Shown in pieces: positions 13,541 through 29,592 of a stretch of 64,000 bases of DNA (positions are counted from its first letter, which is position 1; the number at the start of each line of letters is the position of its first letter). The translations under genes and the position numbers were made by a program. The stretch comes from Pseudomonadales bacterium (GTDB lineage: Bacteria; Pseudomonadota; Gammaproteobacteria; Pseudomonadales; Azotimanducaceae). A model generated the notes under the pieces. That model ran no database searches. It saw only the letters and a list, made by a program, of their open reading frames with translations, and was not told where the DNA came from. The stretch lies in the NCBI GenBank assembly GCA_022827905.1, contig JAJEIQ010000004.1:1-64000 (forward strand), in the 5' to 3' direction.

Positions 13541-13562
13541 GCGGAATGGAACGCCTGACGGG

Positions 13563-14846
13563 CTAGGGCCTCGCGGTTTCGCTGTTGCCAGACTCCCATA
13601 GCATCTTGATCGGCATGGCGAACAATTTGGAAGCCGACTGCATGATCCGGTCGCCGTCGTGTAGAAGGATTCCGCAGGCGAACTGATCGCCCGCTGCCGC
13701 TTCAAGACGCGCCAGTCCCTTGAAGTCATCGGGGCGCACAGTCGCGCTGGCCTTGACCTCGATGCCCACAACCTCGCCTGGCGAGCGCTCCAGAACCAGA
13801 TCGACCTCCACGCGATCCTTGTCCCGATAGTGGCTAATCGAAATCGAATCGCCGTGCAGCGCAACGGCCTTGGCGACCTCGGAGTAAACGAAGCACTCAA
13901 GCAGAGGGCCAAGGCTCTGGCGGTTCCGTTCGATGGCTGTTTGGTTGATTCGCTTTAGTGCGGCGAGCAGGCCCGAGTCCAGGAATTGCAGCTTTGGCGT
14001 CTTGACCAAGCGCTTTAGGTCATTGCGATGCCAAGCCTTGAGGCGACGGACGAGATAGAGCCGCTCAAGCAATGTGAGCCACCGATCGGCGGTTTTGCCA
14101 TCCACGCGCAATCTCGAACCGAGATCGGACAGGTTGAGCATTTGGCTAGCGCAGACGGCCGCATGGTCGATCAAGTCCGCAAAGCGGTCGAGCTTGTTGA
14201 CGGCGGAGACGTCCGAAATGTCCCGTTCCGCGAGTGAGCCGGCGTAGGCCCGCAGCCAACTCAGGCGTCGTGCGGAATTCGGGCGGGCGAGTGCCTCCGG
14301 GAATCCCCCTGAGACCACCCGTTCAAGCAGATTGTCGGTAGAGCCAGTGGTGGCGAGGGTGGGAAAGTCTGCGGCAAACGCCCGCTCCAAGAAGTCGGGC
14401 ACGTTGGCGACGGCCGCTTCAGCTTGGGAAAATGGCAGGAGCTCAATGGTCTCGACCCGCCCGGCCAACGAATCGGGGGAAATCGCGCTTCTGAACAACT
14501 CCACCGAGCCGGTGATCAGGAAGCGTCCTGGCCTCGGGTTCTCGTCAACCTGTTTCTTGAGTTCGAGAATGAGCCCCGGTGCACGTTGAATTTCGTCGAT
14601 GACCGCACCGCGTCGGCCACGCATGAACCCGATGGGATCGTCCTGCGCAAACCGCCTGAACTGTTCATCGTCAAGCGTGATGAACGGGCGGCTTTCGTCG
14701 TCAGCAAATCGGCGGGCGAGGGTGGTCTTGCCGGACTGCCGCGGTCCGACCAGCGCAACGATGCGGGTGTCCCTTAAGGCTGTGCCGACCCGGGCTTCGG
14801 CATGCCTTGGCAGATATTCGTTGGGTGATGTCGTCCAATTCGGCAT
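13563..14846 (-). CDS. AAA-family ATPase with DUF4143 (first copy)
   Basis: A protein of 427 residues. The AAA_14 domain has Walker A GPRQSGKT (about 34-41) and a Walker B-like AVIDEIQRAP (about 90). The DUF4143 C-terminal part has a PD-(D/E)XK-like EVDLVLE ... GIEVKAS. Function is unknown; such genes are common in accessory regions. The first nine codons (MPNWTTSPN) are encoded by the first unit of a repeat array (14829-14914), so the start codon may have been supplied by the repeat; YLPRHAEARV is where the family normally begins. A second, divergent ATPase of the same class lies at 15806. Confidence 0.85.
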   Translation of the reverse strand: MPNWTTSPNEYLPRHAEARVGTALRDTRIVALVGPRQSGKTTLARRFADDESRPFITLDDEQFRRFAQDDPIGFMRGRRGAVIDEIQRAPGLILELKKQVDENPRPGRFLITGSVELFRSAISPDSLAGRVETIELLPFSQAEAAVANVPDFLERAFAADFPTLATTGSTDNLLERVVSGGFPEALARPNSARRLSWLRAYAGSLAERDISDVSAVNKLDRFADLIDHAAVCASQMLNLSDLGSRLRVDGKTADRWLTLLERLYLVRRLKAWHRNDLKRLVKTPKLQFLDSGLLAALKRINQTAIERNRQSLGPLLECFVYSEVAKAVALHGDSISISHYRDKDRVEVDLVLERSPGEVVGIEVKASATVRPDDFKGLARLEAAAGDQFACGILLHDGDRIMQSASKLFAMPIKMLWESGNSETARP

Positions 14847-14914
14847 AGAGTGTCGTCCATTACGGAATTAATGTCCGTCTGATTCGGAATTTATCATCGT
14901 CCAATTCGGAATAA
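14829..14914. repeat. four iteron-like ~20-bp direct repeats
   Basis: Four imperfect copies of TGTCGTCCAATTCGGAATTA begin at 14829, 14851, 14872 and 14895, spaced 22, 21 and 23 bases, about two helical turns. The first overlaps the start of the minus-strand ATPase gene. The others fill the gap toward the VapBC operon. They could be regulator sites, iterons, or the multi-repeat end of an IS21-type element whose body is lost. Confidence 0.75.
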
Positions 14915-15013
14915 AAGCACTGAATCCCGGCTTTGGAGAAGACCCTTGGATACTTGTTTTGGACCATAATCTAGTCCACTATTAGCTGATCTCTCATTCT
15001 ACTGGTGAAGGAA

Positions 15014-15271
15014 ATGCACGTTTCTGTCAGCCAAGCCAAGGCTCAGTTGACCGACCTCGTCCGCCGTGCGGAGCGGGGAGAGGAAATCGTCCTTACGCGG
15101 CACGGCCGCGCGTGCGCCACATTGACACCGCTGAGGCACACACCAAGCGCGGAGGGTCGGCGGAAAGTGATTGATTCCGTCATGGAAGCCGTTCGAAACA
15201 AGAAATTGCCAGGGCCGAACGCCGCTCGAAGCCAAGACTTTTTGTATGACGACCAAGGATTGCCAGAGTGA
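15014..15271 (+). CDS. Phd/YefM-type antitoxin (VapB role)
   Basis: An antitoxin of 85 residues that neutralises the downstream PIN toxin and probably represses the operon. The N-terminal Phd/YefM fold reads MHVSVSQAKAQLTDLVRRAE, followed by GEEIVLTRHGRACATLTPL. The C-terminal part is charged and ends KLPGPNAARSQDFLYDDQ, a tail of the kind that wraps the toxin. The ATG at 15014 follows GTGAAGGA; a GTG at 15005 is the only alternative. Its stop overlaps the toxin start (GTGA). Confidence 0.88.
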   Translation: MHVSVSQAKAQLTDLVRRAERGEEIVLTRHGRACATLTPLRHTPSAEGRRKVIDSVMEAVRNKKLPGPNAARSQDFLYDDQGLPE

Positions 15272-15663
15272 TCGTTGTCGACACTTCTGCGTTGATGGCC
15301 ATCCTGTTGCACGAGCCCGAGGCGCTCGAGTGCCGCAAAGTGCTTGCCAGCAATGAGCCACTGCTCATTTCAGCCGCAACGCTTGCCGAAGCACTCATCG
15401 TTTCCGAGAGACGCGGCGTCGGGATGGAGATGAGCGAGTTGATCGAGGGACTCCAACTCGAAATCGATAGCGTCTCGCAGGCCGCGGCACGCAGAGTAGC
15501 CAACGCATACGCCGCATGGGGCAAGGGCAATCACGCCGCCAGACTGAATTTTGGCGACTGCTTTTCATACGAACTCGCGAAAAGACATGAGTTCCCGCTG
15601 CTATGCGTTGGGAGGGACTTTTCGCGTACGGACCTCTCAACGCTAACTCACGAACCCGCCTAG
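15268..15663 (+). CDS. vapC: VapC-type PIN-domain toxin ribonuclease
   Basis: PIN-domain RNase of 131 residues. The acidic metal-binding residues are visible: D in VVDTSALMAIL, E in LAEALIVSE, D in FGDCFSYELAK and D in CVGRDFSRTD. It starts at a GTG that overlaps the antitoxin stop by four bases. RNA targets of such toxins are often tRNA or rRNA; this one's target is unknown. The pair sits between two AAA/DUF4143 ATPases in an accessory island. Confidence 0.9.
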   Translation: MIVVDTSALMAILLHEPEALECRKVLASNEPLLISAATLAEALIVSERRGVGMEMSELIEGLQLEIDSVSQAAARRVANAYAAWGKGNHAARLNFGDCFSYELAKRHEFPLLCVGRDFSRTDLSTLTHEPA

Positions 15664-15773
15664 CGCTTCGTCACGCACTTCCAAAACCTAAACAGGACCC
15701 TATTTTGAAAATTTTTTAGTAAAACACCCCTTTGTTTTGTTAAATCTTGATCAAAATAATCCCCTTTTTTCGA

Positions 15774-15779
15774 TATACT
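15774..15779 (+). promoter_or_regulatory. candidate -10 element (TATACT) upstream of second ATPase
   Basis: The 15690-15780 stretch is strikingly AT-rich compared with its neighbours and ends in GATATACTCGG, 27 bases before the ATPase ATG. A TTGATC at 15747-15752 is too far (21 bases) for an ideal -35. This is a pattern-based candidate only. Confidence 0.35.
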
Positions 15780-15805
15780 CGGTCGCTCTGGCATCGGAGA
15801 CCGCC

Positions 15806-17197
15806 ATGCATCGCGACCAATTCAACTTCCTCGACAATTGGCTGGCAGGGCCGAATCGGAAGCCCTTGATCGTTCGCGGCGCCCGGCAAGTCGGCAAATC
15901 CACCTTGGTGCGCCTGTTCGCTGAACGCTGTGGCCGGCCCTTGGTGGAGGTCAACTTGGAGCGTCATCCCGACTTGGGCCCGGCCTTCGCCCGCAACGAT
16001 CCGGCCTATCTGCTGAACGTGCTAGAAGCGCTGCCGGGAGTCGGCCCGATCAGTCCGGATGGCTTGTTGTTCCTTGATGAAATCCAAGCTGTGCCCGAGT
16101 CCATCCCAGCGTTGCGCTACTTTCGGGAGGACATGCCTGAGCTTCCCGTGCTGGCGGCCGGCTCGCTTCTGGACTTCGCCCTCGCCGACCACGCATCGCC
16201 CATGCCGGTGGGCCGCATTGGTTACCTGCACATGGGTCCGATGACCTTCACCGAACATCTCGAAGCCGTTGGCGCAGACGGCCTCGCCCGCGCCATACGA
16301 ACGTTTGAGATCGAGCGTGGACTGGATTCGGCGATCCACAACCGTCTCATGGCGGCCTTGAGGACCTACTTCTTCACCGGCGGCATGCCGGAAGCCGTTG
16401 AGTCGTTCGCGCGCTCGGGGCGCCTGCGCGACATCGCCGAGGTGCATAACGCCATCATCGACACCTACCGGGAGGATTTCCCCAAGTACGTTGGCTCACA
16501 GGGGTTGGCCGGCATGGTCAACGTGTTCAACTTCGCGGCTCGCAATGTCGGACGGAAGGTGAAGTACGTCCACGTCTCCACGGAGGATACGGCGGCGGCG
16601 ACCAAGGCGCGCATTGAGCTCCTATGCATGGCGCGGGTCCTCGCCAAGGTGGTGCGCAGCCACTGCAACGGCCTGCCCCTGCAGGCGGAAGCCGACCCGC
16701 GGGCGTACAAGCTGCTGTTCATGGATATTGGTTTGATGAACGCTGTATGCGGCTTGGGCTGGACGGGGATCGAGCGGATGGACCAAACCCGGCTCGTCAA
16801 CGAAGGCGCCATGGCCGAGCAGTTTATCGGCCAGCACCTCCAAGCCCTGCTGGCCGCTTCAGCCAACCGCGAGCTCAGCTACTGGTTGCGCGAAGGCCGG
16901 TCCGCGAACGCGGAAGTGGACTATGTCGCCGCCTTTGACGGCCGCATCGTGCCCATTGAGGTCAAGGCGGGGGCAAGCGGCAGTCTGAAGTCGCTGCACC
17001 AATTCGTCGCGGAAAAAGCCGTGCCCCTCGCCGTCCGCTTCGACGCGACGCCGCCGTCGGCGCAAGAGGTTCGGACCCGAGTGCAGCGCGGCGGAACGCA
17101 AGCCGAAGTGGCCTATCGCCTGATCTCACTGCCGCTCTACTTGGTGGAACGGTTGCCGGCGGTAGTTGCTGACACCCGCTCGCCGCAGCGGCTGTGA
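15806..17197 (+). CDS. AAA-family ATPase with DUF4143 (second copy)
   Basis: A protein of 463 residues, a different subfamily from the copy at 13563. The Walker A is GARQVGKST in the first 35 residues, the Walker B-like motif LLFLDEIQAVP, and the DUF4143 nuclease-like end has AEVDYVAAFDG ... VPIEVKAG. The start is the ATG at 15806, since MHRDQFNFLDNWLAGPNRKP aligns with a degenerate fragment at 23732-23800. The upstream in-frame ATG at 15737 lies in AT-rich promoter-like DNA. The role is unknown; it stands beside VapBC and at the left flank of the lower-GC cassette. Confidence 0.85.
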   Translation: MHRDQFNFLDNWLAGPNRKPLIVRGARQVGKSTLVRLFAERCGRPLVEVNLERHPDLGPAFARNDPAYLLNVLEALPGVGPISPDGLLFLDEIQAVPESIPALRYFREDMPELPVLAAGSLLDFALADHASPMPVGRIGYLHMGPMTFTEHLEAVGADGLARAIRTFEIERGLDSAIHNRLMAALRTYFFTGGMPEAVESFARSGRLRDIAEVHNAIIDTYREDFPKYVGSQGLAGMVNVFNFAARNVGRKVKYVHVSTEDTAAATKARIELLCMARVLAKVVRSHCNGLPLQAEADPRAYKLLFMDIGLMNAVCGLGWTGIERMDQTRLVNEGAMAEQFIGQHLQALLAASANRELSYWLREGRSANAEVDYVAAFDGRIVPIEVKAGASGSLKSLHQFVAEKAVPLAVRFDATPPSAQEVRTRVQRGGTQAEVAYRLISLPLYLVERLPAVVADTRSPQRL

Positions 17198-17542
17198 GGG
17201 GTCGGCATTGCGCGCCATGGCGCCGACGTGCGGCGTCGGGATACAACGGCGCATAACTGATCTCCGCAAAACTCCTTGGCTTCGATTTCATGATTGTGGG
17301 ATAACCGCCCTGCCCTGGACCAGCAGTTTAACATCCACAGCGTACGCCGATCACACCAGGACACCAACCGCATCAAGATCCCGCAGATCCATACCCGGTT
17401 GATACTTTCATCTCAACCGCAGAACCGCTTTATTCGTCCTATCCCTCCATGTCAACCAGTTTGTATTCGGGCAACACCACAAGTCTCTCCTCAATAGTTC
17501 CAGCACCTTGATCAAAGCGTAGCGAGAACAAGGAAGGTGAGA
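17198..17542. other. intergenic stretch without a recognised gene
   Basis: About 345 bases between the second ATPase and the first palindrome of the cassette. Base composition drops from about 17270 onward. Short open frames exist on both strands, but none has a ribosome site or recognisable product. This is probably the left junction of the transferred cassette. Confidence 0.5.
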
Positions 17543-17562
17543 CACCCTCAAAGTTGAGGGTG
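17543..17562. promoter_or_regulatory. palindromic operator candidate, cassette site L1
   Basis: Perfect 9-bp inverted repeat CACCCTCAA-AG-TTGAGGGTG, containing the core CCCTC-N6-GAGGG (17545-17560). It lies about 120 bases upstream of the TonB receptor start. The same core recurs at 17603, 23335 and 23421. Confidence 0.65.
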
Positions 17563-17602
17563 ATACAAGGTTTAGTGAGCTACTCAGATCACACTTTGTA
17601 CC

Positions 17603-17618
17603 CTCTCGAAATGGAGGG
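17603..17618. promoter_or_regulatory. palindromic operator candidate, cassette site L2
   Basis: CTCTC-GAAATG-GAGGG, one base off the CCCTC-N6-GAGGG core. CTCGAAAT-N-GAGGGGAC is shared with site R2 at 23421. It is 58 bases centre-to-centre from L1 and about 63 bases upstream of the TonB receptor start. A candidate -10 (TGATAT, 17625-17630) follows, which would put the palindrome over the -35 region. Confidence 0.6.
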
Positions 17619-17680
17619 GACGCCTGATATGCGTTTCTCAGTAACCTACCGACAAAATGGCGATCGAGAGGGCGTACAGC

Positions 17681-20029
17681 ATGTCAGACAAAATAGTGAA
17701 CTTCTGCCTTGGGGCTTTGGCATTTGTGATTACGGCAACGCCAACAATCGTATTCGCAGAGTCAACGAGTGAACCCATCGATTCTTCGGCCAGGGAATCC
17801 GCTATAGAAGAAGTGGTCGTCACTGCCCGGCGCAGAGCGGAAAGTCTGCAGGACGTGCCCGTAACGGCCAGCGTGCTATCGGCCGATCTCATGGAGCGAC
17901 AAGCAATCGACACTATGGATGAGATGGCGAATCGAATTCCCAACTTTGTCATCATTAAAGGTGCATCTGGAGGAGGTGGCTCCTTACGACTACGAGGGAT
18001 TGGAACCAGCAACATCAGTGCGGCGTTCGACTCTGCAATTGCACTTAACATCGATGGTGTCGTTACCAACTCTATGAGGTTGGTGAACAACACGTTCATG
18101 GACTTAGAGCAAGTTGAATTATTGAAAGGGCCGCAGTCCTTATACTATGGCAAAAGCGCGTCCGCTGGTGTGTTAACAATGCGTTCAAACGATCCTGGCT
18201 CGGAGTTTGAAGCGGATATGAGCGTCAGCTATGAGTCGGAACTGGATACAACGACGGTGTTTGGTGTGATATCCGGTCCGCTTTCAGATACCCTTGGTAT
18301 GCGGCTCGCACTACAAAGTAAGGAAGCCGACGAACTTTTCAAGAATACTGCCCCGGGAGTTCGTAATTCAAAACGAGGTGAGGAGAGTTTTGACGCTCGC
18401 TTAACAACCGTCTGGGAACCATCAGACGCGTTGGATGTAAGACTGAAACTTGCGTATTCCGACTTTGAAAACGATGGCACTTTGTCCAATCACGATATGT
18501 TGTGCCCAGGCACACAACAAGATGTGATTGTTGGCGGGGTTGTCTACGGCCCAAGTGGTCTCGACTGCGACCCGTTTGACCGTGAAATCCAGTTTGGAGA
18601 TGCTAACCCAATTCTCCGAGGTAACTACCTGGGATGGGACGGCGTACCGTTCTCTGACCAAGAGGCAACTTTTGCGAGTCTTCAGGTAGCGTACGACCTG
18701 TCCGATACGCTTACGCTGAATTCAACAACGGGCTATTTTGATATTGACGATGAGAGCGTAGATGCATACGCCGGTAATCAGTTCGGGTTGGGAATAGGGC
18801 TTGCTCAAACCAAGCGAGAAGGGATATCGCAAGAAGTAAGGCTCGAAAGCTCATACGATGGACCAGTCAACTTCATGGCGGGCGTCTACTATCAGGACCG
18901 GGAAATCAACTTTGAATCAGGTGATGTTGCGCCGTTGTTCCTGCAATTTTTCGGACCGAACCCGGGAACCGGAGAAACGTTTGAGTGGCACAAGGTGCAC
19001 GACACGGACGCAGAAACCTGGTCTGCGTTCTTCAGCCTGGATTGGAACGTTACAGATCGACTGGATTTGACGGCGGGTGTGCGCTACACCGACGAAGAAG
19101 TGTCCAACACGTTAGAGTTGCCTTACGTCTACTTCCTCCTACCCGTGGCTATCCCGGTTGCTGGTTCATCAGGGTTCCAGTCGTCGCCGATCGAATTCGA
19201 AGACGATAACGTATCGCCCGAACTGAGCCTGCGATTCGCCGCGACTGATTCCACGATGATCTACGCGGCCTATAAAACAGGATTCAAGTCCGGCGGTGTA
19301 GACAATAGCGCGCTGCCCACCAATGTTTCGACACCCGCTTTGCAGGGGCTTATTTATGACTCAGAGACCTCTGATGGTTTTGAGGTTGGCACCAGATCTG
19401 ATCTGTTGGACGGTACGTTGCGCATCAACAGCACGTTCTATCGATACGTGTACGAAGACCTTCAAGTTCAGATCTTTAATGGCGCGACATTTCAGTATGT
19501 AACGCAAAACTTTGGTGAGGTGACAAGCCAGGGCGCTGAATTAGACCTGATCTGGGTCGTTGCAGACGGTCTGGCTTTGAACGCAAGTCTTTACTATTCC
19601 GATTCTGAACTCACCGACGACATTTTTGATCAAACCAACGTTAATCAGAAAGGGGAGCAGATCACAGGTAACGCGGGGTGGACTGCGCAGTTGGGATTGG
19701 ACTATTCCTGGCCTGTTGGCGACAACCTCAGAGCAGAGTTGTCGCTGCACACTCGCTACTCAGACGACTACAACCTGGCTAACGAAAGCCAAGTCTGGCA
19801 CCGACAGGATTCTTATTGGGTCGTTGATGCCTATGCTGCCCTCGAGAGTGCGGATGAACGTTGGAGATTGTCGATTACGGGCATCAACGTGTTCGATGAA
19901 GACTATGCTCTCGATGCGGGTGCATCGACCGGTCGGATCCCGAACGTAGAAGACAATGGCAGGTTCGATCAGAGACTTACCATCGCACCGGGTCGTTTGT
20001 TTACCTTTGAAGCGAAGTATCGTTTCTAA
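17681..20029 (+). CDS. TonB-dependent outer-membrane receptor
   Basis: Outer-membrane transporter of 782 residues. A signal peptide (about 1-26, ending IVFAES) is followed by a TonB-box-like IEEVVVTARRR, the plug domain (LQDVPVTASVL, LRGIGTSNIS, VELLKGPQSLYYGKSASAGV) and a 22-strand-type barrel ending in a C-terminal aromatic (KYRF). It resembles the FecA/CirA-like receptors for organic compounds common in marine proteobacteria; the substrate is unknown. The ATG at 17681 is preferred to 17657, which lacks a ribosome site. It heads an operon with the PhyH gene 19 bases downstream. Its GC is lower than the surroundings. Confidence 0.93.
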   Translation: MSDKIVNFCLGALAFVITATPTIVFAESTSEPIDSSARESAIEEVVVTARRRAESLQDVPVTASVLSADLMERQAIDTMDEMANRIPNFVIIKGASGGGGSLRLRGIGTSNISAAFDSAIALNIDGVVTNSMRLVNNTFMDLEQVELLKGPQSLYYGKSASAGVLTMRSNDPGSEFEADMSVSYESELDTTTVFGVISGPLSDTLGMRLALQSKEADELFKNTAPGVRNSKRGEESFDARLTTVWEPSDALDVRLKLAYSDFENDGTLSNHDMLCPGTQQDVIVGGVVYGPSGLDCDPFDREIQFGDANPILRGNYLGWDGVPFSDQEATFASLQVAYDLSDTLTLNSTTGYFDIDDESVDAYAGNQFGLGIGLAQTKREGISQEVRLESSYDGPVNFMAGVYYQDREINFESGDVAPLFLQFFGPNPGTGETFEWHKVHDTDAETWSAFFSLDWNVTDRLDLTAGVRYTDEEVSNTLELPYVYFLLPVAIPVAGSSGFQSSPIEFEDDNVSPELSLRFAATDSTMIYAAYKTGFKSGGVDNSALPTNVSTPALQGLIYDSETSDGFEVGTRSDLLDGTLRINSTFYRYVYEDLQVQIFNGATFQYVTQNFGEVTSQGAELDLIWVVADGLALNASLYYSDSELTDDIFDQTNVNQKGEQITGNAGWTAQLGLDYSWPVGDNLRAELSLHTRYSDDYNLANESQVWHRQDSYWVVDAYAALESADERWRLSITGINVFDEDYALDAGASTGRIPNVEDNGRFDQRLTIAPGRLFTFEAKYRF

Positions 20030-20048
20030 ATCTTCTGTGGGAGTAATC

Positions 20049-21341
20049 ATGGAACCAAATTTGCAAGACAAGCCTGTTATACCAATGAGTGAGTACGTAG
20101 AACTGCTCTCAGAGGGTTGGCGCGAGACGTTAGATAGTCGTCTCCAGATCTTCTTCAACCACATGAAAGAGACTTTGAGAGGCGAAACACAAACTATCTT
20201 ATTGGTACTGAGGAATGCGCCACCGCATCTTTCGCTGGCGGACAATGTTGGCAAGCTCTCTATTGTCATTTCCGAATCGAAGGTCAAAGTCACTCCCGAT
20301 GGCAACGCTCAACCAGACTTACTGATTGAAGCTGACTACACACACGCCTTGCCAATCGCTCAGGCTGTTGGAGAAGAAGCGATATCCAGAGCGGTGCACG
20401 AAGCAAAACATAACTATGGACAAGACTGTATTCGCGTCGAAGGCACGCTGCCTAAGGGTCACCTGCGAACGATTCTGAGTGCAGCCTGGGACCATATGGC
20501 CAGGCGCACACTCGAGAACCCAGACCTAGCCATGCGTGTTGTTCAGCAAGGACTGACACGCCAGGTCAACGCGGTGAAAGAGCTCGGCTATACGGTGATC
20601 GAGAACGCTATTTCTCCGGAACTTACTGAGTCATTAAGAAAGGTGATTCGGGAAGAGACTCTGTGTCACAACAACCTGCTGCAGGGCCGGGTTGATTCCA
20701 ATGGTCTCCTCGGAAGAGGTCGACCTTTTGAGGACATTGTTCAAATACCGAAGCTCAGAACGGTAGCTGAGACAGCTTTGGGATGCAATATGATGCTCTA
20801 CACAGTTGGTTCTGCTGTTTCGCTTTGCGGACCGGGCAATGTACCTCTGCACGCCGATATGCCAAATATTCCAGACCCTTACCCAAGGTGGGGCATGGTC
20901 GGTGTCGCTGTATGGGCGTTCGATGATTGGGTTGAAGAGGCGGGCACCACGTGGGTGATTCCTGGCAGTCACAAGCTACGAAGATTTCCTGGGGCAGAGG
21001 ATACAACGGACGGTGGTGTCCCAATCTTGATGCCGAAAGGATCAGTCACCTTTTTCACTCACGGTATTCACCACTGGCAGGGTGATCGGAGCTTGCAAGA
21101 ACCCAGAGTGACGCTTCACAACGCTTACTGCAGAGCTTTTTTGCGGCAGGCCGATGATTTCTCGCATATGGATGCCGCATTGCATCGGAATTCGCCTGTA
21201 CTCTCGAATCTCGTTGGGCGCAATGATCACTGGGGATTGTCTGGGCACATGGGGCACGACCCAAGCATTCAACAAACAGCGCTAAACCTAATGAACGACG
21301 CAGTGCAACAAGAATCGCTTAAAGCGGTTTGTGGAGGCTAA
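20049..21341 (+). CDS. phytanoyl-CoA dioxygenase-family enzyme with N-terminal SCP2-like domain
   Basis: Probable Fe(II)/2-oxoglutarate-dependent oxygenase of 430 residues. The C-terminal PhyH domain (about 180-400) carries HADMP (HxD facial-triad part), and the distal His probably lies in THGIHHWQGDRS, followed by RVTLHNAYCRAF. The first 150 residues look like an SCP2-type lipid-binding domain (QPDLLIEADYTHALPIAQ, RVEGTLPKGHLRTIL). That fusion suggests a hydrophobic substrate. A GGAG-type site lies before the ATG at 20049. It is cotranscribed with the TonB receptor. The domain assignment of the N-terminus is by eye. Confidence 0.82.
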   Translation: MEPNLQDKPVIPMSEYVELLSEGWRETLDSRLQIFFNHMKETLRGETQTILLVLRNAPPHLSLADNVGKLSIVISESKVKVTPDGNAQPDLLIEADYTHALPIAQAVGEEAISRAVHEAKHNYGQDCIRVEGTLPKGHLRTILSAAWDHMARRTLENPDLAMRVVQQGLTRQVNAVKELGYTVIENAISPELTESLRKVIREETLCHNNLLQGRVDSNGLLGRGRPFEDIVQIPKLRTVAETALGCNMMLYTVGSAVSLCGPGNVPLHADMPNIPDPYPRWGMVGVAVWAFDDWVEEAGTTWVIPGSHKLRRFPGAEDTTDGGVPILMPKGSVTFFTHGIHHWQGDRSLQEPRVTLHNAYCRAFLRQADDFSHMDAALHRNSPVLSNLVGRNDHWGLSGHMGHDPSIQQTALNLMNDAVQQESLKAVCGG

Positions 21342-21356
21342 CAGATGGCTTGCGGT

Positions 21357-21379
21357 GGTCAATGGTTCTTTCATTGGCC
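21357..21379. terminator. candidate stem-loop between convergent operons
   Basis: GGTCAATG-GTTCTTT-CATTGGCC forms an 8-bp stem (one G-U pair) with a 7-nt loop just after the PhyH stop. No strong U-tract follows, so it is a weak terminator candidate. It lies in the 140-base gap between two converging operons. Confidence 0.35.
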
Positions 21380-21481
21380 ATATTCCTCTGGTCTTGTGTC
21401 CACTTTATGATCGTTGCTAAGTATCAGAACGATGACACCATTTCGTAAATTCGATTTTTGCGTCCGAGAAAGGATGCCAAA

Positions 21482-22297
21482 TTATTCGCTTAAGGCTTCT
21501 TTTCGCCGGTCAACGGTTCCAAGAAGACCGAACGGAACGGCCAATGCAACGCAGTGTGTGGCGCTGGCAGCGTTGAATTTGGTGCGACAATTGTCAATAT
21601 GGTATCTGACCGTGGTAGTTGATATGCCAACCTCTTCGGATACTTCTGCGAAGGACAGTCCATTTGCAACAAGCTTTAGGCATTTCAGTTCCTGTAGTGT
21701 CAGGTGTGGTATAGATGCGTCGATGGGATCTTTAGCCTCGACGGCTTGCATGTGGGTCATAAACCTGTAGCCGAAATCCAAGAGCTCGGGAGATAGCTTA
21801 TCCGCGATATTAGAAAGGACCTTTAGATCAACGGAGCCACCCCATCCAATGTACCCGACTGTTCCCATCGGTTGATGTAAGGGTATGACGAGTAGGTTTT
21901 CCACGCCTAGATCCATCAACTGCTGATTGACGAACTTCTCATCCTGATCGAGCGGATCACGCCTGGAGTCTACGGACAGGCATGTGGCATATGGCAACCG
22001 TGTTGTCCAAACTCTCGAATCAGACTTGAGACTGAAGCGCCTTTTACGAACTCTTTCGAAAAACTCTGCCGGTAATCCTACGGCATCGGCACCTGCAATA
22101 GACTCTGCGTTGTCCAGATTGAACACATCCCTGAACGCCACAGCTAGGCCAAGGCCGAACAGCCTTCCAGCTTCGCTGAGCTTGCTGTAGGCGATTTCTT
22201 TTTGATCAAAGGAGCTAACCTCGCGTGAAATGGCGCGAAGTTCTTGCGCCAGTGCGGTGAAGTCGGATTCGCCTGTAGTGCTCTCGTTTTGGTTCAC
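21482..22297 (-). CDS. LuxR-family transcriptional regulator
   Basis: DNA-binding regulator of 271 residues. The C-terminal LuxR helix-turn-helix spans about 197-255 (LTLQELKCLKLVANGLSFAE, VGISTTTVRYHI). The N-terminal 180 residues resemble the autoinducer-binding/GAF-like fold (GVENLLVIPLHQPMGTVGYI), but the canonical acyl-homoserine-lactone pocket residues are not clearly conserved. It may sense a different small molecule, as LuxR solos do; no LuxI is present. It lies 127 bases downstream of the amidohydrolase on the same strand and is the obvious candidate to bind the CCCTC-N6-GAGGG sites flanking the cassette. Confidence 0.87.
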   Translation of the reverse strand: MNQNESTTGESDFTALAQELRAISREVSSFDQKEIAYSKLSEAGRLFGLGLAVAFRDVFNLDNAESIAGADAVGLPAEFFERVRKRRFSLKSDSRVWTTRLPYATCLSVDSRRDPLDQDEKFVNQQLMDLGVENLLVIPLHQPMGTVGYIGWGGSVDLKVLSNIADKLSPELLDFGYRFMTHMQAVEAKDPIDASIPHLTLQELKCLKLVANGLSFAEVSEEVGISTTTVRYHIDNCRTKFNAASATHCVALAVPFGLLGTVDRRKEALSE

Positions 22298-22321
22298 GCC
22301 ACGCCCTGAGTCTACGGTGCG

Positions 22322-22365
22322 AGAGCAACCACTTCATCAGCTTATGACTATGTTCTGGTTGCTCT
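22322..22365. promoter_or_regulatory. 10-bp inverted repeat upstream of luxR-family gene
   Basis: AGAGCAACCA and TGGTTGCTCT form a perfect 10-bp inverted repeat separated by 24 bases, 25 bases upstream of the regulator's ATG and after the amidohydrolase stop. It could be an operator for autoregulation or a weak intra-operon hairpin. The sequence is unlike the CCCTC palindromes. Confidence 0.45.
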
Positions 22366-22424
22366 AGGGCGTTGATTTTACCTGAGATAGTAGTAAACAG
22401 CTACATGTGTGAAACCCCGCAATC

Positions 22425-23240
22425 TCAGCCAAAAAAAATGCGTTCTGCTGTTCTCCAGGCGTAGTTTTCAGCAGCATCGCCAGTGAAGTGGTTGTTCGCT
22501 CCTTCAGGTCGCTTTTCATCAAATGAAAGTGCTGGAAAATCGGTTGCCCACATCAAGCGATCAGCTCCGTCATCGTTTCCAAAATCGATAATCTCGCGGG
22601 GCAGTCGCTGTTCTGCAATGACCGATGACATCCAATACAACCTCGGCCACTTACGCATTAGGGCTACGCATGAAGCAGCCCACGGTAGACCACCGTGACA
22701 CATAGCCACGTTAAGACTTGGAAAGTGCTCCATCACTACATCCAGGGCCATTGGATCCTGGAGCTGATCAGAGATGGGAATATGAGGCATGCCCACAGTA
22801 CAGCTAAGCACCAAACTTTCCTCTTCACAGGCTGCGTAGATAGGGAAGTACTTCGGGTGATCGTAGGGCAGCCCGGAGAAGACGCCTAGGACCTTTATCG
22901 CACGATAGCCCCGTTCCCGATAGCTTCGAATTTTGCGCATGTCTTGAAGCGCCGAAGAAGGTTGAACTGCCACGCAACCGACAAACCGATCTGGGTGTGT
23001 TTCTATCGCGGTATCAACGGCGCTTTGCAGGAGTTCCGAACCGTAGGGATCTGTTATCACTGCCTTTGCCACACCACCCGACTCCATGAGGTCTACGACG
23101 GCGTCCAGACCGGTGTATTCGGCTGAGTTTTTAAGAAGGTTAGGGGATCGCTTTGTACCAATCTCCAAGAGCTCTGGATCGAAAGGTGGCGCAAATTCGG
23201 GGTGATGTGCGTTCAACCAGCAATCTATGAGTTTCATCAT
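22425..23240 (-). CDS. amidohydrolase-2 (ACMSD-like) family protein
   Basis: TIM-barrel protein of 271 residues in the amidohydrolase-2 family (hydrolases and decarboxylases acting on aromatic or lactone acids). The C-terminal signature GADRLMWATDFPALSFD holds the usual late Asp, and CHGGLPWA and the GYRAIKVLG block fit the fold. The first strand reads LIDCWLNAHHPEF, without the usual HxH metal pair right after the strand, so metal binding may be altered or absent. Start ATG at 23240 (23237 also possible). It heads the minus-strand operon with luxR and has two palindromes upstream. Substrate unknown. Confidence 0.82.
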   Translation of the reverse strand: MMKLIDCWLNAHHPEFAPPFDPELLEIGTKRSPNLLKNSAEYTGLDAVVDLMESGGVAKAVITDPYGSELLQSAVDTAIETHPDRFVGCVAVQPSSALQDMRKIRSYRERGYRAIKVLGVFSGLPYDHPKYFPIYAACEEESLVLSCTVGMPHIPISDQLQDPMALDVVMEHFPSLNVAMCHGGLPWAASCVALMRKWPRLYWMSSVIAEQRLPREIIDFGNDDGADRLMWATDFPALSFDEKRPEGANNHFTGDAAENYAWRTAERIFFG

Positions 23241-23334
23241 CCTTCCAATCTCCCCTTTGGCTTTGTCGATTGCCCGATTGGTTTGTTCGATCCTAGAAAC
23301 TGTTTGATACTACAGTGAGCAGGTGAACTGAATA

Positions 23335-23350
23335 CCCTCGATTCTGAGGG
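23335..23350. promoter_or_regulatory. palindromic operator candidate, cassette site R1
   Basis: CCCTC-GATTCT-GAGGG, 95 bases upstream of the amidohydrolase start. It exactly matches the CCCTC-N6-GAGGG core seen at 17545, at the other end of the cassette. Confidence 0.6.
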
Positions 23351-23420
23351 GCTTGTTGTAGGCCGCGCGTGTTTTGAGATCGATGCCATGTGTATGCGTT
23401 TGCTGCGCAATCACCCTACT

Positions 23421-23436
23421 CCCTCGAAATAGAGGG
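23421..23436. promoter_or_regulatory. palindromic operator candidate, cassette site R2
   Basis: CCCTC-GAAATA-GAGGG, 86 bases centre-to-centre from R1. It shares CTCGAAAT-N-GAGGGGAC with site L2. It marks the right edge of the lower-GC cassette; the IS21-like scar begins 34 bases further on. Confidence 0.6.
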
Positions 23437-23469
23437 GACTCTGTTCTTTATTAATCCGTAGCTGTCAAT

Positions 23470-23516
23470 GGCAACTGAAAACTGCACACTTTTGGCAATT
23501 GAAAACTGCACACTTT
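23470..23516. repeat. tandem 24-bp repeats, IS21-type element end
   Basis: Two tandem units of GGCAA(C/T)TGAAAACTGCACAC followed by TTT, at 23470-23492 and 23494-23516. Paired repeats like these just beyond an istB 3' end match the terminal repeats of IS21-family elements. The adjacent istB fragment (23569-23706) supports this. Confidence 0.65.
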
Positions 23517-23568
23517 CGGGGAGGACGTCCGAGCGGCAGTGACGGCCTCCCGGGAACCGGCGCGGAGG

Positions 23569-23706
23569 TCACGCAGGGACTCCCCGGGCGCCTTCCTCGG
23601 GCCCGGCCCGCAGCAGGTCCTGGTGCTCCCGCATGCGGTAGCTGTTGCCGCGAATGTTGACGATGTGGTAGTGGTGCAGCAGGCGGCAGACGGGGATGCA
23701 GTCCAG
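23569..23706 (-). pseudogene. istB: IS21-family istB (ATPase helper) C-terminal remnant
   Basis: The minus-strand frame reads LDCIPVCRLLHHYHIVNIRG followed by NSYRMREHQDLL, a good match to the C-terminal end of IstB ATP-binding helper proteins. Nothing upstream resembles the Walker A part, so only about 45 residues survive. Together with the terminal repeats at 23470-23516 it is the scar of an IS21-type insertion whose left part was lost. Confidence 0.7.
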
Positions 23707-23731
23707 CTTTGGATGCCGATTGACACCCAAG

Positions 23732-23800
23732 GACTGCGACCAGTTCAGGTTCCTCGGCAATTGGCTGGCAGCACCGAATCGGAAGCCCCTGGTCGTCCGC
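23732..23800 (+). pseudogene. 5' fragment of a DUF4143 ATPase gene (copy of the 15806 gene)
   Basis: The plus-strand frame reads DCDQFRFLGNWLAAPNRKPL then VVR, matching RDQFNFLDNWLAGPNRKPLI at the start of the ATPase at 15806. By eye about 56 of 65 bases agree (15813-15877 against 23736-23800). Similarity ends before the Walker A motif. The fragment sits between the istB remnant and the PNPOx-like gene, in the same orientation as the intact gene. Confidence 0.75.
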
Positions 23801-23810
23801 TCGTCCGATC

Positions 23811-24494
23811 TCATTCCCAGAACGGTCGCTGCCAGCGCCAGTGTCGTTCAAAGCACAGTCCATGCCGCAGCTTCTCAACTCCTTCAGGCAGGCGCGGATC
23901 AGCCAGGGGCGAATCCAGCACGAGGCGCACGGGGACCGTCCCCGCCCAAACGGGATGTGAAACATCCGCCTCCGAATCGTTTGGCCCGCCGGAGCGCGTC
24001 TTTGCGGACGCCTCGTTGATGGGCAGGGACAGCACGGTCGTGGCATTCAACTCCCCTTGCGTCAACGGGCGCAATGACCGCCAGCGTTCGGGAAACAGGC
24101 TATTGATGAACGCTTCCAGTCTCCGCAGTTTCTCGTCCCGGTTCTGGACTTCCGCAGGCTTGCCGAAAACCATTACGGATCGATAGTTGGCCGAGTGATG
24201 GAGTCCGGAGCGGCCGAGCACGAACCCGTCGAGAACGGCCGCAGTGACGCAGACTGGCCCTTCGGTTGCTGCAATCAACGCCGCGCTGGCCCGTGACCCG
24301 TGCCAGTAGATGTGATCGCCTCGCCGCCAGTGAATGGTCGGCGTCACCCGTGGCTCTCCATTGACTAGGTAGCCCACGTAGGACATCGGCGTCGCGTCGA
24401 GTATGGCGTGGATTGTCGCGAGCTGATGGGAGCCGCGTTGGCGCTTTCGACGTAAACGCGTTCGTTCAGTTTCCTCCAGGTGGTCACGGGTCAT
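23811..24494 (-). CDS. pyridoxamine 5'-phosphate oxidase-like flavin/split-barrel protein
   Basis: A protein of 227 residues in the FMN-binding split-barrel class of PF12900 type: MSYVGYLVNGEPRVTPTIHW, HIYWHGSRASAALIA, GFVLGRSGLHHSANYRSVMV. Such proteins bind flavin or heme; activity is not established for most. It is divergent from the MocR regulator (94 bases between start codons), a frequent pairing in which the regulator controls the split-barrel gene. The first 25 bases around its start codon are repeated in inverted orientation at the start of the serine hydrolase at 26091. Confidence 0.85.
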   Translation of the reverse strand: MTRDHLEETERTRLRRKRQRGSHQLATIHAILDATPMSYVGYLVNGEPRVTPTIHWRRGDHIYWHGSRASAALIAATEGPVCVTAAVLDGFVLGRSGLHHSANYRSVMVFGKPAEVQNRDEKLRRLEAFINSLFPERWRSLRPLTQGELNATTVLSLPINEASAKTRSGGPNDSEADVSHPVWAGTVPVRLVLDSPLADPRLPEGVEKLRHGLCFERHWRWQRPFWE

Positions 24495-24502
24495 TGCTCA
24501 GG
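24478..24502 (-). repeat. 25-bp inverted repeat, left arm
   Basis: Reading on the minus strand, CCTGAGCAATGACCCGTGAC followed by CACCT contains the start codon and first codons (MTRDHL) of the PNPOx-like gene. A perfect plus-strand copy is at 26083-26107. The arms enclose the mocR gene. Confidence 0.85.
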
Positions 24503-24525
24503 TCCCTCAATAAACCGGCACCACT

Positions 24526-24537
24526 ATCCAATTGGAT
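24526..24537. promoter_or_regulatory. candidate MocR operator
   Basis: ATCCAATTGGAT is a perfect 12-bp palindrome in the divergent promoter between the PNPOx-like gene and mocR. Related steps follow (CTCCAATATCTGG at 24553, CTATGGTACCAAT at 24571), giving a spaced series of CCAAT-containing sites. MocR/PdxR regulators usually bind repeated sites in such divergent regions. Prediction only. Confidence 0.4.
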
Positions 24538-24588
24538 TGGCTGGAAAAAAAGCTCCAATATCTGGAATTTCTATGGTACCAATACCAC

Positions 24589-26061
24589 ATGAAGATTCCG
24601 GTGAAGAATGAGCGCGGCGGTCCCCTGAACCGTCAAATCTACGAAGGGTTGCGTAACGACATAGTCAAGGGGATCTTGCCGGCCGGAACCCGGCTTCTCC
24701 CTTCCCGCGCCCTGGCCGAGGAACTCGGGGTCTCGCGCAACACCGTCCTGTTCGCCTATGAGCAATTGGCGGCGGAAGGACTCGTTGAGACGCGGACAGG
24801 TGCTGGCACCTTTGTGGTTCAGACCCTTGCGGCCGTGCGCTCTGAACGCGGCTCGCCGCGTGAGGGGGCTGATGGCATGGCGGAACATCTCTCAGCCGCC
24901 GCTCAGCGCATTGTCCAGACTTCAGCATCGGTCACCACCGAATGGGATTGGCGAAGCGCACCTGTGCGATACGACTTTCGCCACGGCGAAGGCGGGGACG
25001 AACGTCTCTCGCTGCGAGTTTGGACCAGACTGCTCGCACGCCGGGCCAGAAGCCTCTCCACGGACACGCTGGCCCATCCTTCACCCGCCGGTGCGCCCGC
25101 GTTGCGGGAGGAGTTGGCCAACTACCTTGCCCGCTCTCGAGGGGTTGTCTGTCACCCGGAACAAATCGTCGTGACGCACGGTTCCCAGCAGGTCATTGAC
25201 ATCTGCATGCGCCTGCTCGTTGATCCGGGGGACCCCGTGGTGGTCGAGGAACCCCACTATCGGGGCTACTCCATGTGCCTAGCCGCCTCCGGTGCGAAGG
25301 TCTTGCGTGCTCCCGTCGACGAACAAGGCATCATGGTCAATGTGCTAAAGGATGTTTCACGCGCCAAGATCGCATGCGTTACTCCATCGCACCAGTTTCC
25401 GACGGGAGCCGTTCTTTCCCTAGCCCGCCGCATGGAACTGCTGAACTGGGCAAGCCAGCGGGGAGCCGTCATTCTTGAAGACGACTACGACGGTGAGTTC
25501 CGGTACGCGGGGCGCCCGATCCAGTGCCTGCAGTCTCTTGACCACAGCGGATTGGTGATCTACGCGGGCTCCGCCTCAAAGATGATGTTTCCCTCGCTGA
25601 GAATCGGCTGGGCAGTCGTGCCTGAAAGCCTTGTGGAGACGTTTCGCCAACTGAGATTCTTAACTGATCGCATCAGCGCAACCTTGGAGCAATTGGCCTT
25701 CGCCGACTTCATCCGGGAAGGGGCTCTCGACCGCCACATACGCCGTATTCGCAAGCGCCAGAGGCGGCGGCGTGATGCGCTCGTTGAGGCGGTGCACCGC
25801 GAATTGGGCAGCCGCGTGGAGTTGCTGGGGACCAGCGCGGGATTTCATGCGCTGCTTCGATTGCCAGACTTGGCAAGCGACCGATTCCCTCTACTGCGCG
25901 AAGCGTGCAAGCAGCGCAACGTGGGAATCCATTCCGCCCTGCGCCACTACGACAAGGCGCCAGCCCACATGGAGTTGGTGCTCGGCTACGCTTCGCTCTC
26001 GGAGGAAAACATCAACGCGGGAATTGGACGGTTCCGGGAGGCATTGGATACGATTGGGTAG
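24589..26061 (+). CDS. MocR/PdxR-type GntR regulator with aminotransferase domain
   Basis: Transcription factor of 490 residues. The N-terminal GntR winged helix (about 1-75; LNRQIYEGLRNDIVKGILPA, LGVSRNTVLFAYEQLAAEGL) is fused to a fold-type I aminotransferase domain with the PLP-binding lysine at about 331 (GSASKMMFPSLRIGW) and DDYDGEFRY upstream. Relatives respond to PLP or to amino-compound adducts. The ATG at 24589 starts the GntR domain; the earlier ATG at 24532 lies in the operator-like region. It is divergent from the PNPOx-like gene, its probable target. Confidence 0.9.
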   Translation: MKIPVKNERGGPLNRQIYEGLRNDIVKGILPAGTRLLPSRALAEELGVSRNTVLFAYEQLAAEGLVETRTGAGTFVVQTLAAVRSERGSPREGADGMAEHLSAAAQRIVQTSASVTTEWDWRSAPVRYDFRHGEGGDERLSLRVWTRLLARRARSLSTDTLAHPSPAGAPALREELANYLARSRGVVCHPEQIVVTHGSQQVIDICMRLLVDPGDPVVVEEPHYRGYSMCLAASGAKVLRAPVDEQGIMVNVLKDVSRAKIACVTPSHQFPTGAVLSLARRMELLNWASQRGAVILEDDYDGEFRYAGRPIQCLQSLDHSGLVIYAGSASKMMFPSLRIGWAVVPESLVETFRQLRFLTDRISATLEQLAFADFIREGALDRHIRRIRKRQRRRRDALVEAVHRELGSRVELLGTSAGFHALLRLPDLASDRFPLLREACKQRNVGIHSALRHYDKAPAHMELVLGYASLSEENINAGIGRFREALDTIG

Positions 26062-26082
26062 TGATGCCGGTTGAATGGAGGG

Positions 26083-26107
26083 CCTGAGCAATGACCCGTG
26101 ACCACCT
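26083..26107 (+). repeat. 25-bp inverted repeat, right arm
   Basis: Perfect inverted copy of 24478-24502. It supplies the start codon and first codons (MTRDHL) of the serine hydrolase. The two arms lie in the 5' leaders of two unrelated genes on opposite sides of mocR. Confidence 0.85.
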
Positions 26108-27386
26108 ACAGGGAACTGCACGAAATATGCTGCGCCTGCTCTTGGTGTTCTGCTTGTTGCAGGCCACCGCAGGGCTGGCGCGGGAACCCGATGCGACGCC
26201 GGAGGAGGTTGGCCTTTCGACCGAGCGCCTAGCCCGATTTGCGAACTACACCAAGGCAATGGTTGAAGCCGGGAAGATTCCCGGGGCGACCATCGCGGTC
26301 TCCCGCTTCGGCAAGCTTGCGTACTTTGAAACCATCGGCTGGGCGGACATTGACGAGCGCAAGCCGACCCGGGCGGACACGCTGTACCGCCTTCACTCCA
26401 TGACAAAGCCGCTGTTCGCCGTAGCGACCATGACGCTGGTCGAGGAAGGGCGGCTCGGTCTTCGGGAGCCACTCTCCAAGTACATTCCCGAATTCGCGGA
26501 CGTGAAAGTACTCGCCGGAGGCACTGCGGATGCCCCCGAGCTCGAGGACCCCAAATCGACGCCCAATGTTGGCCAGTTGCTTTCGCAGACGGCGGGAATC
26601 GCAACCGGGGGTGACCTGTTCGCCGAAGGGGCCATTGGGGAAATCTATTCCAAGGCCGCGATTTTTGAAGGCAATCCAAGCGCTGAAGACATCGCCCAGC
26701 GAATCGCTCAATTGCCCTTGGCGGGCCATCCCGGCGAGATCTTCGTTTACGGCCTCTCTTTCGATGTGCTGGCACGGGTGCTGGAAGTCGCTTCCGGCCA
26801 GCCGCTCGACGAGTTCATTGCGCAGCGGCTGTTGGACCCGCTCGGCATGGAGGACACCTTTTTCGTCGTTCCTGAAGATAAGCTGCATCGTTTTTCGAAT
26901 TCCTATGACATAACCGGCCCGGGATCGTTGCAGGCGGTGACGGGGGCCGACCACATCGCGCGTTGGCAGCCCGGCAGGCCGTTTCTTTCCCCGAACAGCG
27001 GCATGGTGTCCACCGTTTCCGACTACCTGCGCTTTGCCCAGATGATGCTCAATGGCGGCGAGTTGGACGGGGCGCGCATCGTCTCGCGCAAGACGGTGGA
27101 ACTCATGACCGCCATCGTGGTTGAGAACGCGGAACTGGGGCTCATTCGGGCCGCGTTGCCGGGGTACGGCTATTCGCTGGGGTTTGGTGTGCTGGAAAAT
27201 CTTGCGGCATCGGCGAAGCCGGGTACGCTGGGCCAATACGAATGGGCGGGGTGGGGCGACACTTACTTTTTCGTGGACCCCAACGAGCAGTTGATTGGAT
27301 TGTTCTTCACCCAAGTTTATCCCGGAGGAACCTACGGCCTGCGAGAGTTGCTCACGAGCTTCACTTACCAAGCGTTGATCGACTGA
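26091..27386 (+). CDS. secreted beta-lactamase-family (class C) serine hydrolase
   Basis: Penicillin-binding-protein/esterase-type hydrolase of 431 residues. The nucleophile motif is SMTK (HSMTKPLFAVATM), and the second motif fits Y-x-S in FVYGLSFDVLAR. The signal peptide is MLRLLLVFCLLQATAGLA. The start is uncertain: 26091 lies in a 25-bp leader shared with the PNPOx-like gene, while an ATG at 26127 starts the signal peptide directly. Substrates of this family range from esters to peptides, and resistance activity is not implied. A paralogue is at 43948-45255. Confidence 0.87.
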   Translation: MTRDHLQGTARNMLRLLLVFCLLQATAGLAREPDATPEEVGLSTERLARFANYTKAMVEAGKIPGATIAVSRFGKLAYFETIGWADIDERKPTRADTLYRLHSMTKPLFAVATMTLVEEGRLGLREPLSKYIPEFADVKVLAGGTADAPELEDPKSTPNVGQLLSQTAGIATGGDLFAEGAIGEIYSKAAIFEGNPSAEDIAQRIAQLPLAGHPGEIFVYGLSFDVLARVLEVASGQPLDEFIAQRLLDPLGMEDTFFVVPEDKLHRFSNSYDITGPGSLQAVTGADHIARWQPGRPFLSPNSGMVSTVSDYLRFAQMMLNGGELDGARIVSRKTVELMTAIVVENAELGLIRAALPGYGYSLGFGVLENLAASAKPGTLGQYEWAGWGDTYFFVDPNEQLIGLFFTQVYPGGTYGLRELLTSFTYQALID

Positions 27387-27450
27387 AAGGGAAGAGCTGA
27401 GTCCTTCAGCGTCAACAGAGCTCCCGAATCGCCGAAGAACGGCCAACGAG

Positions 27451-27864
27451 ATGATCATACGACCCGCCACCGGCGCCGACCGTTCCAGCGTCGTCGCTCT
27501 TTGGGAAACAGTCTTTCCAGACGATCCCCCGCACAACGCCCCTTCAAAGGTGTTCGACGCCAAACTCGCCGTGCAGGACGACTTGCTATTGGTCGCGGTG
27601 GATGAGAACGCGGTGATCGGCACCACGATGGCGGGATATGACGGCTTCCGAGGTTGGCTTAACAGGGTCGCCGTCCTGCCGCAGCATCAGCGCCGGGGCG
27701 TGGCCACAGCACTTGTCCATCATGCCATGCGCCAGTTGCGCACCGCCGGCTGCACCAAGGTCAACATTCAAATTCGGTCCACGAACGCCGAAGTTCGCGG
27801 ATTCTATGAATCGCTCGGATTCGATGTCGAAGAACGCCTGAGCATGGCAAGGCATATCGGCTGA
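27451..27864 (+). CDS. GNAT-family N-acetyltransferase
   Basis: Acetyl-CoA-dependent N-acyltransferase of 137 residues. It starts MIIRPATGADRSSVVALW; the acetyl-CoA loop is VLPQHQRRGVATALV (about 74-88), and the C-terminal VRGFYESLGFDVEERLSM fits motif B. It resembles YpeA-type acetyltransferases; the substrate is unknown. It is a stand-alone gene 64 bases after the serine hydrolase. Confidence 0.85.
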   Translation: MIIRPATGADRSSVVALWETVFPDDPPHNAPSKVFDAKLAVQDDLLLVAVDENAVIGTTMAGYDGFRGWLNRVAVLPQHQRRGVATALVHHAMRQLRTAGCTKVNIQIRSTNAEVRGFYESLGFDVEERLSMARHIG

Positions 27865-29560: not shown

Positions 29561-29592
29561 GTCCAAATCCACATGCGCGTGGTTATCCTTGG

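Follow-up and report, generated by a model that had tools for sequence, protein, structure and literature searches.

The question raised by the 64,000-nucleotide stretch analysed here (hereafter the window; Pseudomonadales bacterium, GenBank assembly GCA_022827905.1, contig JAJEIQ010000004.1) is what role is played by four palindromes of the type CCCTC-N6-GAGGG, three exact and one with a single mismatch, that sit upstream of two convergent gene pairs. The answer towards which we lean, with slightly better than even confidence, is that the pairs form a portable catabolic module, acquired horizontally, whose own orphan LuxR protein activates both operons via lux-box-like operators. We define the cassette as the block that the window has in common with a second copy at another locus, L018. 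Its components are listed below; dN/dS is the ratio of nonsynonymous to synonymous divergence, and dS is the synonymous divergence.

17580-23447, cassette, block common to the window and L018; content of guanine plus cytosine (GC) 50.8% over 17544-23436
17545-17560, palindrome A1, CCCTC-N6-GAGGG with 0 mismatches
17603-17618, palindrome A2, 1 mismatch; proposed activator operator of the left operon
17681-20029, + strand, TonB-dependent receptor (PF00593, PF07715; dN/dS 0.078 versus L018)
20049-21341, + strand, PhyH-type Fe(II)/2-oxoglutarate dioxygenase (PF05721, E 4e-13)
21482-22297, - strand, LuxR-type regulator, proposed reader of the palindromes (PF00196, E 3e-12)
22425-23240, - strand, amidohydrolase (Amidohydro_2, PF04909)
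23335-23350, palindrome B1, exact; proposed activator operator of the right operon
23421-23436, palindrome B2, exact; proposed upstream auxiliary site

Palindromes, gene pairs and their second copy

An initial annotation, made from the letters alone, had described convergent operons with a TonB receptor, a PhyH protein, an amidohydrolase and a LuxR regulator, and Pfam bears out all four genes; they occupy ~17.6-23.4 kb, and the facing ends of the pairs are at 21341 and 21482. Comparison with L018 favours the receptor start at 17681 over that at 17657, and all four genes are under purifying selection (dN/dS 0.08-0.20 versus L018). The palindromes that it placed at 17545, 17603 (one mismatch), 23335 and 23421 are likewise present, and as exact matches they are beyond chance: the window contains three exact dyads versus 0.11 expected (at least three in 0 of 100 shuffles), and the two upstream regions contain three versus 0.0012 expected, a number reached in none of 5,000 shuffles. 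What is unusual about the dyads is the exact matches and their placement, not the total with one mismatch allowed, which for the whole window is an ordinary 5 versus 3.97 expected.

Close relatives of the LuxR protein, sought with short exact peptide patterns over genome contigs, a method that finds near relatives only, are encoded at two loci, L017 and L018. Locus L018 belongs to the Pseudomonadales metagenome-assembled genome (MAG) PL23a_bin.75 (genome G800), which apparently represents another genus of the same family as the window genome; an excerpt of PMC9868349 describes a bin PL23a_bin.125 as coming from the coral Porites lutea. The four proteins of L018 are 89-94% identical to those of the window (dS 0.27-0.41), and its cassette sits at an unrelated locus with flanks that have no homology to those of the window; blastn returned two blocks, 17580-21342 (89.7%) and 21472-23447 (88.2%), and no other. 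Locus L017 is a 10.3-kb contig from a MAG with the label Binatia (isolate jk18x40bins.50; an Ircinia sponge study, PMC9531527, has the same prefix, jk18) and is 97.8% identical to the window over 9.2 kb, including the flanks. It was rejected as an independent copy and contributes little to the test of conservation; the Binatia label may stem from misbinning of the contig, or the match may reflect a very recent transfer of the whole island.

Palindromes A2, B1 and B2 are identical in L018 at 48 of 48 positions (16/16 each), whereas 29 of the 207 other aligned promoter bases differ (11/56 left, 18/151 right, with a further 31 gap columns on the right). This lack of change over a dS of 0.27-0.41 supports the functional role that the initial annotation had assigned to the boxes, and the one independent cassette retains three of the four instead of losing them. 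It should be noted that B2 lies inside an identity run at the very edge of the L018 homology, and that the distance between B2 and B1 is 86 bp in the window and 64 bp in L018, a 22-bp change of about two helical turns. Palindrome A1 is outside the shared block, absent from L018, and carries one substitution in L017; it is probably incidental and not a conserved operator. A pair of boxes before each operon is thus present in the window, as had been claimed; however, the left pair is not conserved and, by these alignments, a conserved pair would be a property of the right operon only.

Do these palindromes simply reflect chance in GC-rich DNA, or terminator-like RNA stems? The ordinary one-mismatch count would suit this explanation, and so would the genome-wide count in G800, with 8 exact matches versus 7 for a reversed-pattern control; yet the control gave 3 versus 17 exact matches in the host genome of the window and 1 versus 22 in G801, the bin of L017. 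In addition, a terminator scan of the + strand picks out B1 and B2 as weak stems (2 versus 0.3 expected). The terminator reading is not favoured, because no + strand gene ends just before B1 or B2 and their T-rich tails are weak; a scan of the left upstream region showed that A1 and A2 are not terminator-like. Together with the shuffles and the conserved positions, this makes the explanation as a whole very improbable: we regard chance as contradicted for A2, B1 and B2, and as the likely reading for A1.

Three of the 17 exact matches in the host genome are within the cassette. Among the 14 others, 12 were looked at, of which 10 lie within open reading frames (ORFs; mechanical calls of at least 80 amino acids), three of them in a single 91-residue ORF, and two are outside ORFs, within a tandem array that repeats one sequence every 27 bp. 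In G800, two of the 8 exact matches are in the cassette, four are in ORFs, and two are intergenic. The sites looked at give no indication of a wider regulon, and the exact motif by itself has little value as a marker across the genome; nevertheless, the initial annotation had weighed its reading against a motif occurring at random across the genome, and these sites do not overturn that reading. GC-rich palindromes of the type CCCTCGCTCCGGAGGG, nearly identical to one another and unrelated to the cassette, form clusters at G000:C46:212029-212098 (L011) and at G000:C37:33584-33717 (L008); those at C46 are in tandem, 27 bp apart.

Another possibility is that A2 and B2 mark the ends of a mobile unit, or serve in recombination, and are not (only) operators: as near-identical direct repeats, they enclose the block in common with L018. 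They have TCGAAATNGAGGGGAC in common, in the same orientation, and the L018 homology extends beyond A2 by 23 bp and beyond B2 by 11 bp. However, B1 is of the same type and internal, there is no recombinase among the four genes, conserved promoter ends would yield the same boundaries, and the DNA inserted in the window was a wider island of 10.5 kb. We consider this possibility quite improbable, and return to the palindromes as operators.

The regulator and its proposed operators

In the proposed mechanism, the orphan LuxR-type protein would respond to a probably imported ligand other than an acyl-homoserine lactone (AHL), bind as a dimer to the 16-bp CCCTC-N6-GAGGG dyads, and activate two convergent transcription units, each a presumed co-transcribed gene pair. 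The left unit would provide outer-membrane uptake, by the TonB receptor, and the PhyH-type dioxygenase, while the right unit would provide the amidohydrolase and the regulator itself, creating positive feedback. The proximal dyads A2 and B1 would act from the place of a lux box, with the centre ~31 bp upstream of a -10-like hexamer TANNNT, and B2 would be an auxiliary upstream site. The candidate hexamers are as follows.

17642-17647, + strand, candidate -10 element, left, TAACCT (TAGTCT in L018), 23 bp after A2
23307-23312, - strand, candidate -10 element, right, TAGTAT (identical in L018), 22 bp after B1

The distances between box and TANNNT, 23 bp for A2 and 22 bp for B1, are the same in both copies, and the dyad centres are 31.5 bp (A2) and 30.5 bp (B1) before the hexamer. 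In excerpts of PMC3376562 and PMC7585371, the lux box is centred at -42.5; the spacing of A2 and B1 matches this position provided that the hexamers serve as -10 elements. Neither upstream region yielded a sigma-70 consensus promoter, as one would expect where promoters depend on an activator. Together with the placement of A2 and B1, this fits a LuxR-type dimer that activates transcription from beside RNA polymerase.

Some LuxR-type proteins repress, and the cassette protein could bind the same dyads as a repressor, with the ligand derepressing both operons and the regulator limiting its own synthesis. The closeness of the dyads to the candidate -10 elements is consistent with repression, autoregulation is equally compatible with it, and the title of a study on a Rhodococcus LuxR solo names both repression and activation. 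On the other hand, the dyads are upstream of the -10-like hexamer and do not overlap it, and neither region has a sigma-70 consensus promoter that would need repression. We regard repression as unlikely.

The GerE/LuxR helix-turn-helix (HTH) domain forms the C-terminus of the regulator, which is the sole regulator among the four genes of the transferred block. A profile built from a six-member alignment (A8: the cassette protein, the L018 copy and four distant relatives, with L045 left out) aligns along most of RhlR and LasR (LasR 54-238), and QscR also aligned. In AHL-responsive LuxR proteins, an Asp-Pro pair and a Trp are ligand-pocket residues. This signature is not kept in the cassette protein as far as a gapped alignment can tell: in the same alignment, the Asp-Pro (LasR ...VDPVV...) is Ser-Pro in the distant relatives, and the Trp (LasR ...PIFW...) is missing from the cassette protein. 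The autoinducer-binding family PF03472 is matched by four of the six aligned members, namely the four distant ones and not the two cassette proteins. A LuxI-type synthase was not found among the nine scanned proteins of the cassette and its neighbourhood, and the genome was not searched for luxI. On these features, we call the regulator an orphan LuxR with a probably non-AHL ligand. AlphaFold models based on three-row alignments were useless both for this protein and for the PhyH protein (mean predicted local distance difference test scores, pLDDT, of 41 and 35).

Alternatively, the dyads could serve as operators for a different regulator, from the host genome or from the wider island (e.g., the GntR-aminotransferase gene described below), with the LuxR protein reading something else, such as an inverted repeat in its own leader. 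We infer the binding of LuxR to the dyads, the distant LuxR relatives have no such dyad, the island contains a second regulator gene, and a 10-bp inverted repeat (22322-22331 and 22356-22365, within the conserved gap 22285-22400, - strand) lies just upstream of luxR. However, the boxes accompany luxR at both of two unrelated loci, the block shared with L018 does not include the GntR-type gene, and the 12 other exact sites looked at in the host give no sign of a wider regulon; another regulator is, in our opinion, an improbable owner of the dyads. In predicted RNA folds (z -2.63 and -2.05), CGCCCU pairs with AGGGCG immediately ahead of the GTG start of luxR, but the remaining fold is not alike in the two copies. 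The gap may serve to control luxR translation, or may contain another binding site.

Besides the terminator-like scores of B1 and B2 given above, several observations weigh against activation through the dyads. Hexamers as well placed were found in 294 of 50,000 shuffles, counting those in which both promoters had TANNNT at offsets 20-24 and agreed to one base, and this test was post hoc. The absence of sigma-70 promoters is weak evidence, as shuffles give just 0.1 and 0.3. Pfam recognises no N-terminal domain in the regulator (PF03472 is not listed at E up to 10). A well-conserved gap of 127 bp separates the amidohydrolase gene from luxR (L018 has the same base at 103 of 119 aligned positions). 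A separate luxR promoter could lie there, and the feedback loop may then not exist, although a scan of this gap, too, gave no consensus promoter. Just one independent homologous cassette, L018, turned up. The distant loci with LuxR and a TonB receptor do not have the CCCTC dyad in common, and the distant PhyH loci L041-L044 lack homologues of LuxR, amidohydrolase and TonB receptor. Because the HTH is this diverged, the missing dyad is no strong evidence either way.

It should also be noted that the distant LuxR relatives (27-33% identity) adjoin TonB receptors at four of the six loci examined. The stretches with the other two are short (6.2 and 11.1 kb). Regulator and receptor are thus frequent neighbours. 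Sites outside L018 were rejected as operators where they fell in coding sequence: an exact dyad at L041:9948 is inside a long ORF, a one-mismatch dyad at L036:5270 is inside the start of an AMP-binding gene, and the other five one-mismatch dyads are all within listed ORFs.

What might such a module degrade? In the dioxygenase, H268, D270 and H342 are invariant in the family alignment, in agreement with the PhyH domain assignment, and match the HxD...H iron site of the PhyH family; its N-terminal ~160 residues are unassigned. The SCP2 part attributed to this protein in the initial annotation has no Pfam support, neither in the cassette protein (E up to 10) nor in any of six family members (E up to 1); HMMER filters remove most matches above E ~0.1. 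The family profile matches the solved oxygenases SptF, TlxJ and EctD, of which SptF and TlxJ act on meroterpenoids. The amidohydrolase superfamily normally has an N-terminal HxH metal motif; the N-terminus here is MMKLIDCWLNAHHPEF, without this motif, and the metal site may be altered. The top-scoring solved chain for the amidohydrolase is 3irs, an uncharacterised protein. The initial annotation had proposed the import and degradation of one hydrophobic compound; judging from the enzyme relatives and from the sponge and coral sources, a hydrophobic polycyclic compound is a plausible substrate. Steroid biosynthesis clusters acquired by horizontal transfer are reported from Ircinia microbiomes (PMC9531527); this does no more than make sterols available as candidate substrates.

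The acquired island and its distribution

The cassette has a GC content of 50.8%, versus 64.3% to the left and 64.2% to the right in the rest of the window, in line with the low GC first reported for this block; it is 51% in both hosts, whose flanks have 64% and 58%. Comparison with other genomes of the genus places the cassette in a wider element.

15663-26123, larger acquired island with the DUF4143 ATPase gene, the cassette, an insertion sequence (IS) remnant, a Pyridox_ox_2 gene and the GntR-aminotransferase gene; absent in congener G008
23469-23703, - strand, IS21-type remnant, two 24-bp direct repeats and an istB 3' fragment
24532-26061, GntR-aminotransferase gene, outside the block shared with L018

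In congener G008 (L083), the matches to 14954-15662 and 26124-27390 are only 429 bp apart, versus 10.46 kb in the window. This empty site, the presence in two of 206 family genomes, and the same cassette at an unrelated locus all support the horizontal acquisition suggested initially; the acquired island is larger than the cassette. Because G008 also has no matches to 13535-14953 and 27391-30297, this stretch of the chromosome was altered more than once. Congener G002 (L084) has the ATPase gene, with ~15 kb of other DNA between it and the right flank. Within the genus, the site 15663-26123 has the appearance of a hot spot for insertion. One ORF in the G002 insert has an SGGKDS motif in its first 50 residues, as in PAPS-reductase-like proteins.

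IS scars beside the block had also been claimed. On the right, this holds for the istB 3' remnant (PF01695, E 8e-5, 22.7 bits versus a cut-off of 24.1) and its two 24-bp repeats; on the left, where the neighbour is the DUF4143 ATPase gene, no IS sequence was seen, and no dedicated IS scan was made. An IS21 composite transposon would have IS copies on both sides. A 74-bp stretch at 23727-23800 resembles the start of the DUF4143 ATPase gene (it matches that gene in L084 and L017), which places ATPase sequence on both sides. Rfam gave nothing at gathering thresholds in 13-28 kb.

Searching the 206 family genomes with the LuxR profile, we obtained near-full-length, high-scoring matches in two, the window genome itself and G1309, and weak partial matches in two more; the amidohydrolase was found in two of the 206 at E 1e-35 or better. 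The eight other genomes of the genus have neither protein at those thresholds. The LuxR gene of G1309 is on C254 and ends at 32968 on the minus strand, with the same contig number and coordinates as in G800; the two were taken as the same genome, although G1309 is placed in another genus than that of the window. Wider searches revealed no close LuxR protein in 97, 369 or 398 genomes, the best others being 26-33% identical over about half of the protein. Counting the window genome in each case, LuxR was found in two of 369 class genomes and one of 398 phylum genomes, and PhyH in six of 390 order genomes at E 1e-25 or better (the others 29-35% identical). Among the relatives of the L018 genome, the cassette is present only in that genome itself (1/97), and the order, class and phylum samples, which overlap, contain no closer cassette. 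Plasmid searches returned distant matches only (22 and 14 records, all below 60% identity); the best-covering LuxR match spans 82% of the query at 26.5% identity, and the others cover less.

Relation to known systems

A bolder version of the proposed mechanism, which we offer as speculation of low probability, is that the borders of the 5.9-kb unit are its own outer operators, so that receptor, oxygenase, hydrolase, switch and boxes move together among symbionts of reef sponges and corals. The LuxR protein would sense a terpenoid or sterol of the host and not a bacterial signal, and the symbiont would thereby turn on uptake and oxidation of a host metabolite. If the less specific mechanism is true, the cassette is a four-gene unit with a LuxR-type regulator that has an uncommon ligand and a defined operator; the inducer, if found, would name a compound taken up by sponge- or coral-associated bacteria, and its discovery would show how a regulator spreads jointly with its set of operators. 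Otherwise, this is an ordinary regulated catabolic cassette.

In the open-licence PMC literature, we found no description of this operator and gene set, no paper that unites phytanoyl-CoA dioxygenase, TonB-dependent receptor, amidohydrolase and the LuxR family, and none that unites CCCTC, the LuxR family, TonB-dependent receptor and operator.

Compared to the activators LuxR, LasR and RhlR with the lux box, the cassette is similar in the LuxR-type HTH and in a family profile that extends along most of RhlR and LasR, in the dyad at a lux-box-like distance from a -10-like element, and in a regulator gene downstream of one presumed target. It differs in that there is no synthase among the four genes, the AHL signature residues are lacking, the N-terminal domain is not recognised by Pfam, and the operator is CCCTC-N6-GAGGG, from which the lux-box core differs. 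Like catabolic LuxR solos, the cassette has an orphan LuxR protein tied to degradation genes. The LuxR solo of Rhodococcus dibenzofuran degradation, compared by title only (a reference title in PMC13273656), concerns another compound and another host. The regulator PheR of phenanthrene uptake and catabolism in Sphingobium, as described in an excerpt of PMC13273656, resembles the proposed LuxR function in that oxidation genes and TonB receptors alike respond to a single regulator; in contrast, PheR is an IclR-family repressor with another motif. At loci L036, L038 and L040 of the same family and L045 of one other family, the regulator adjoins a receptor, as in the cassette, with LuxR 30-33% identical over the C-terminal half and the TonB receptor up to 42%; unlike the cassette, the stretches fetched contain no homologue of amidohydrolase or PhyH and no CCCTC dyad. 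The kind of system is known, rare but fairly ordinary, and the DNA box is new.

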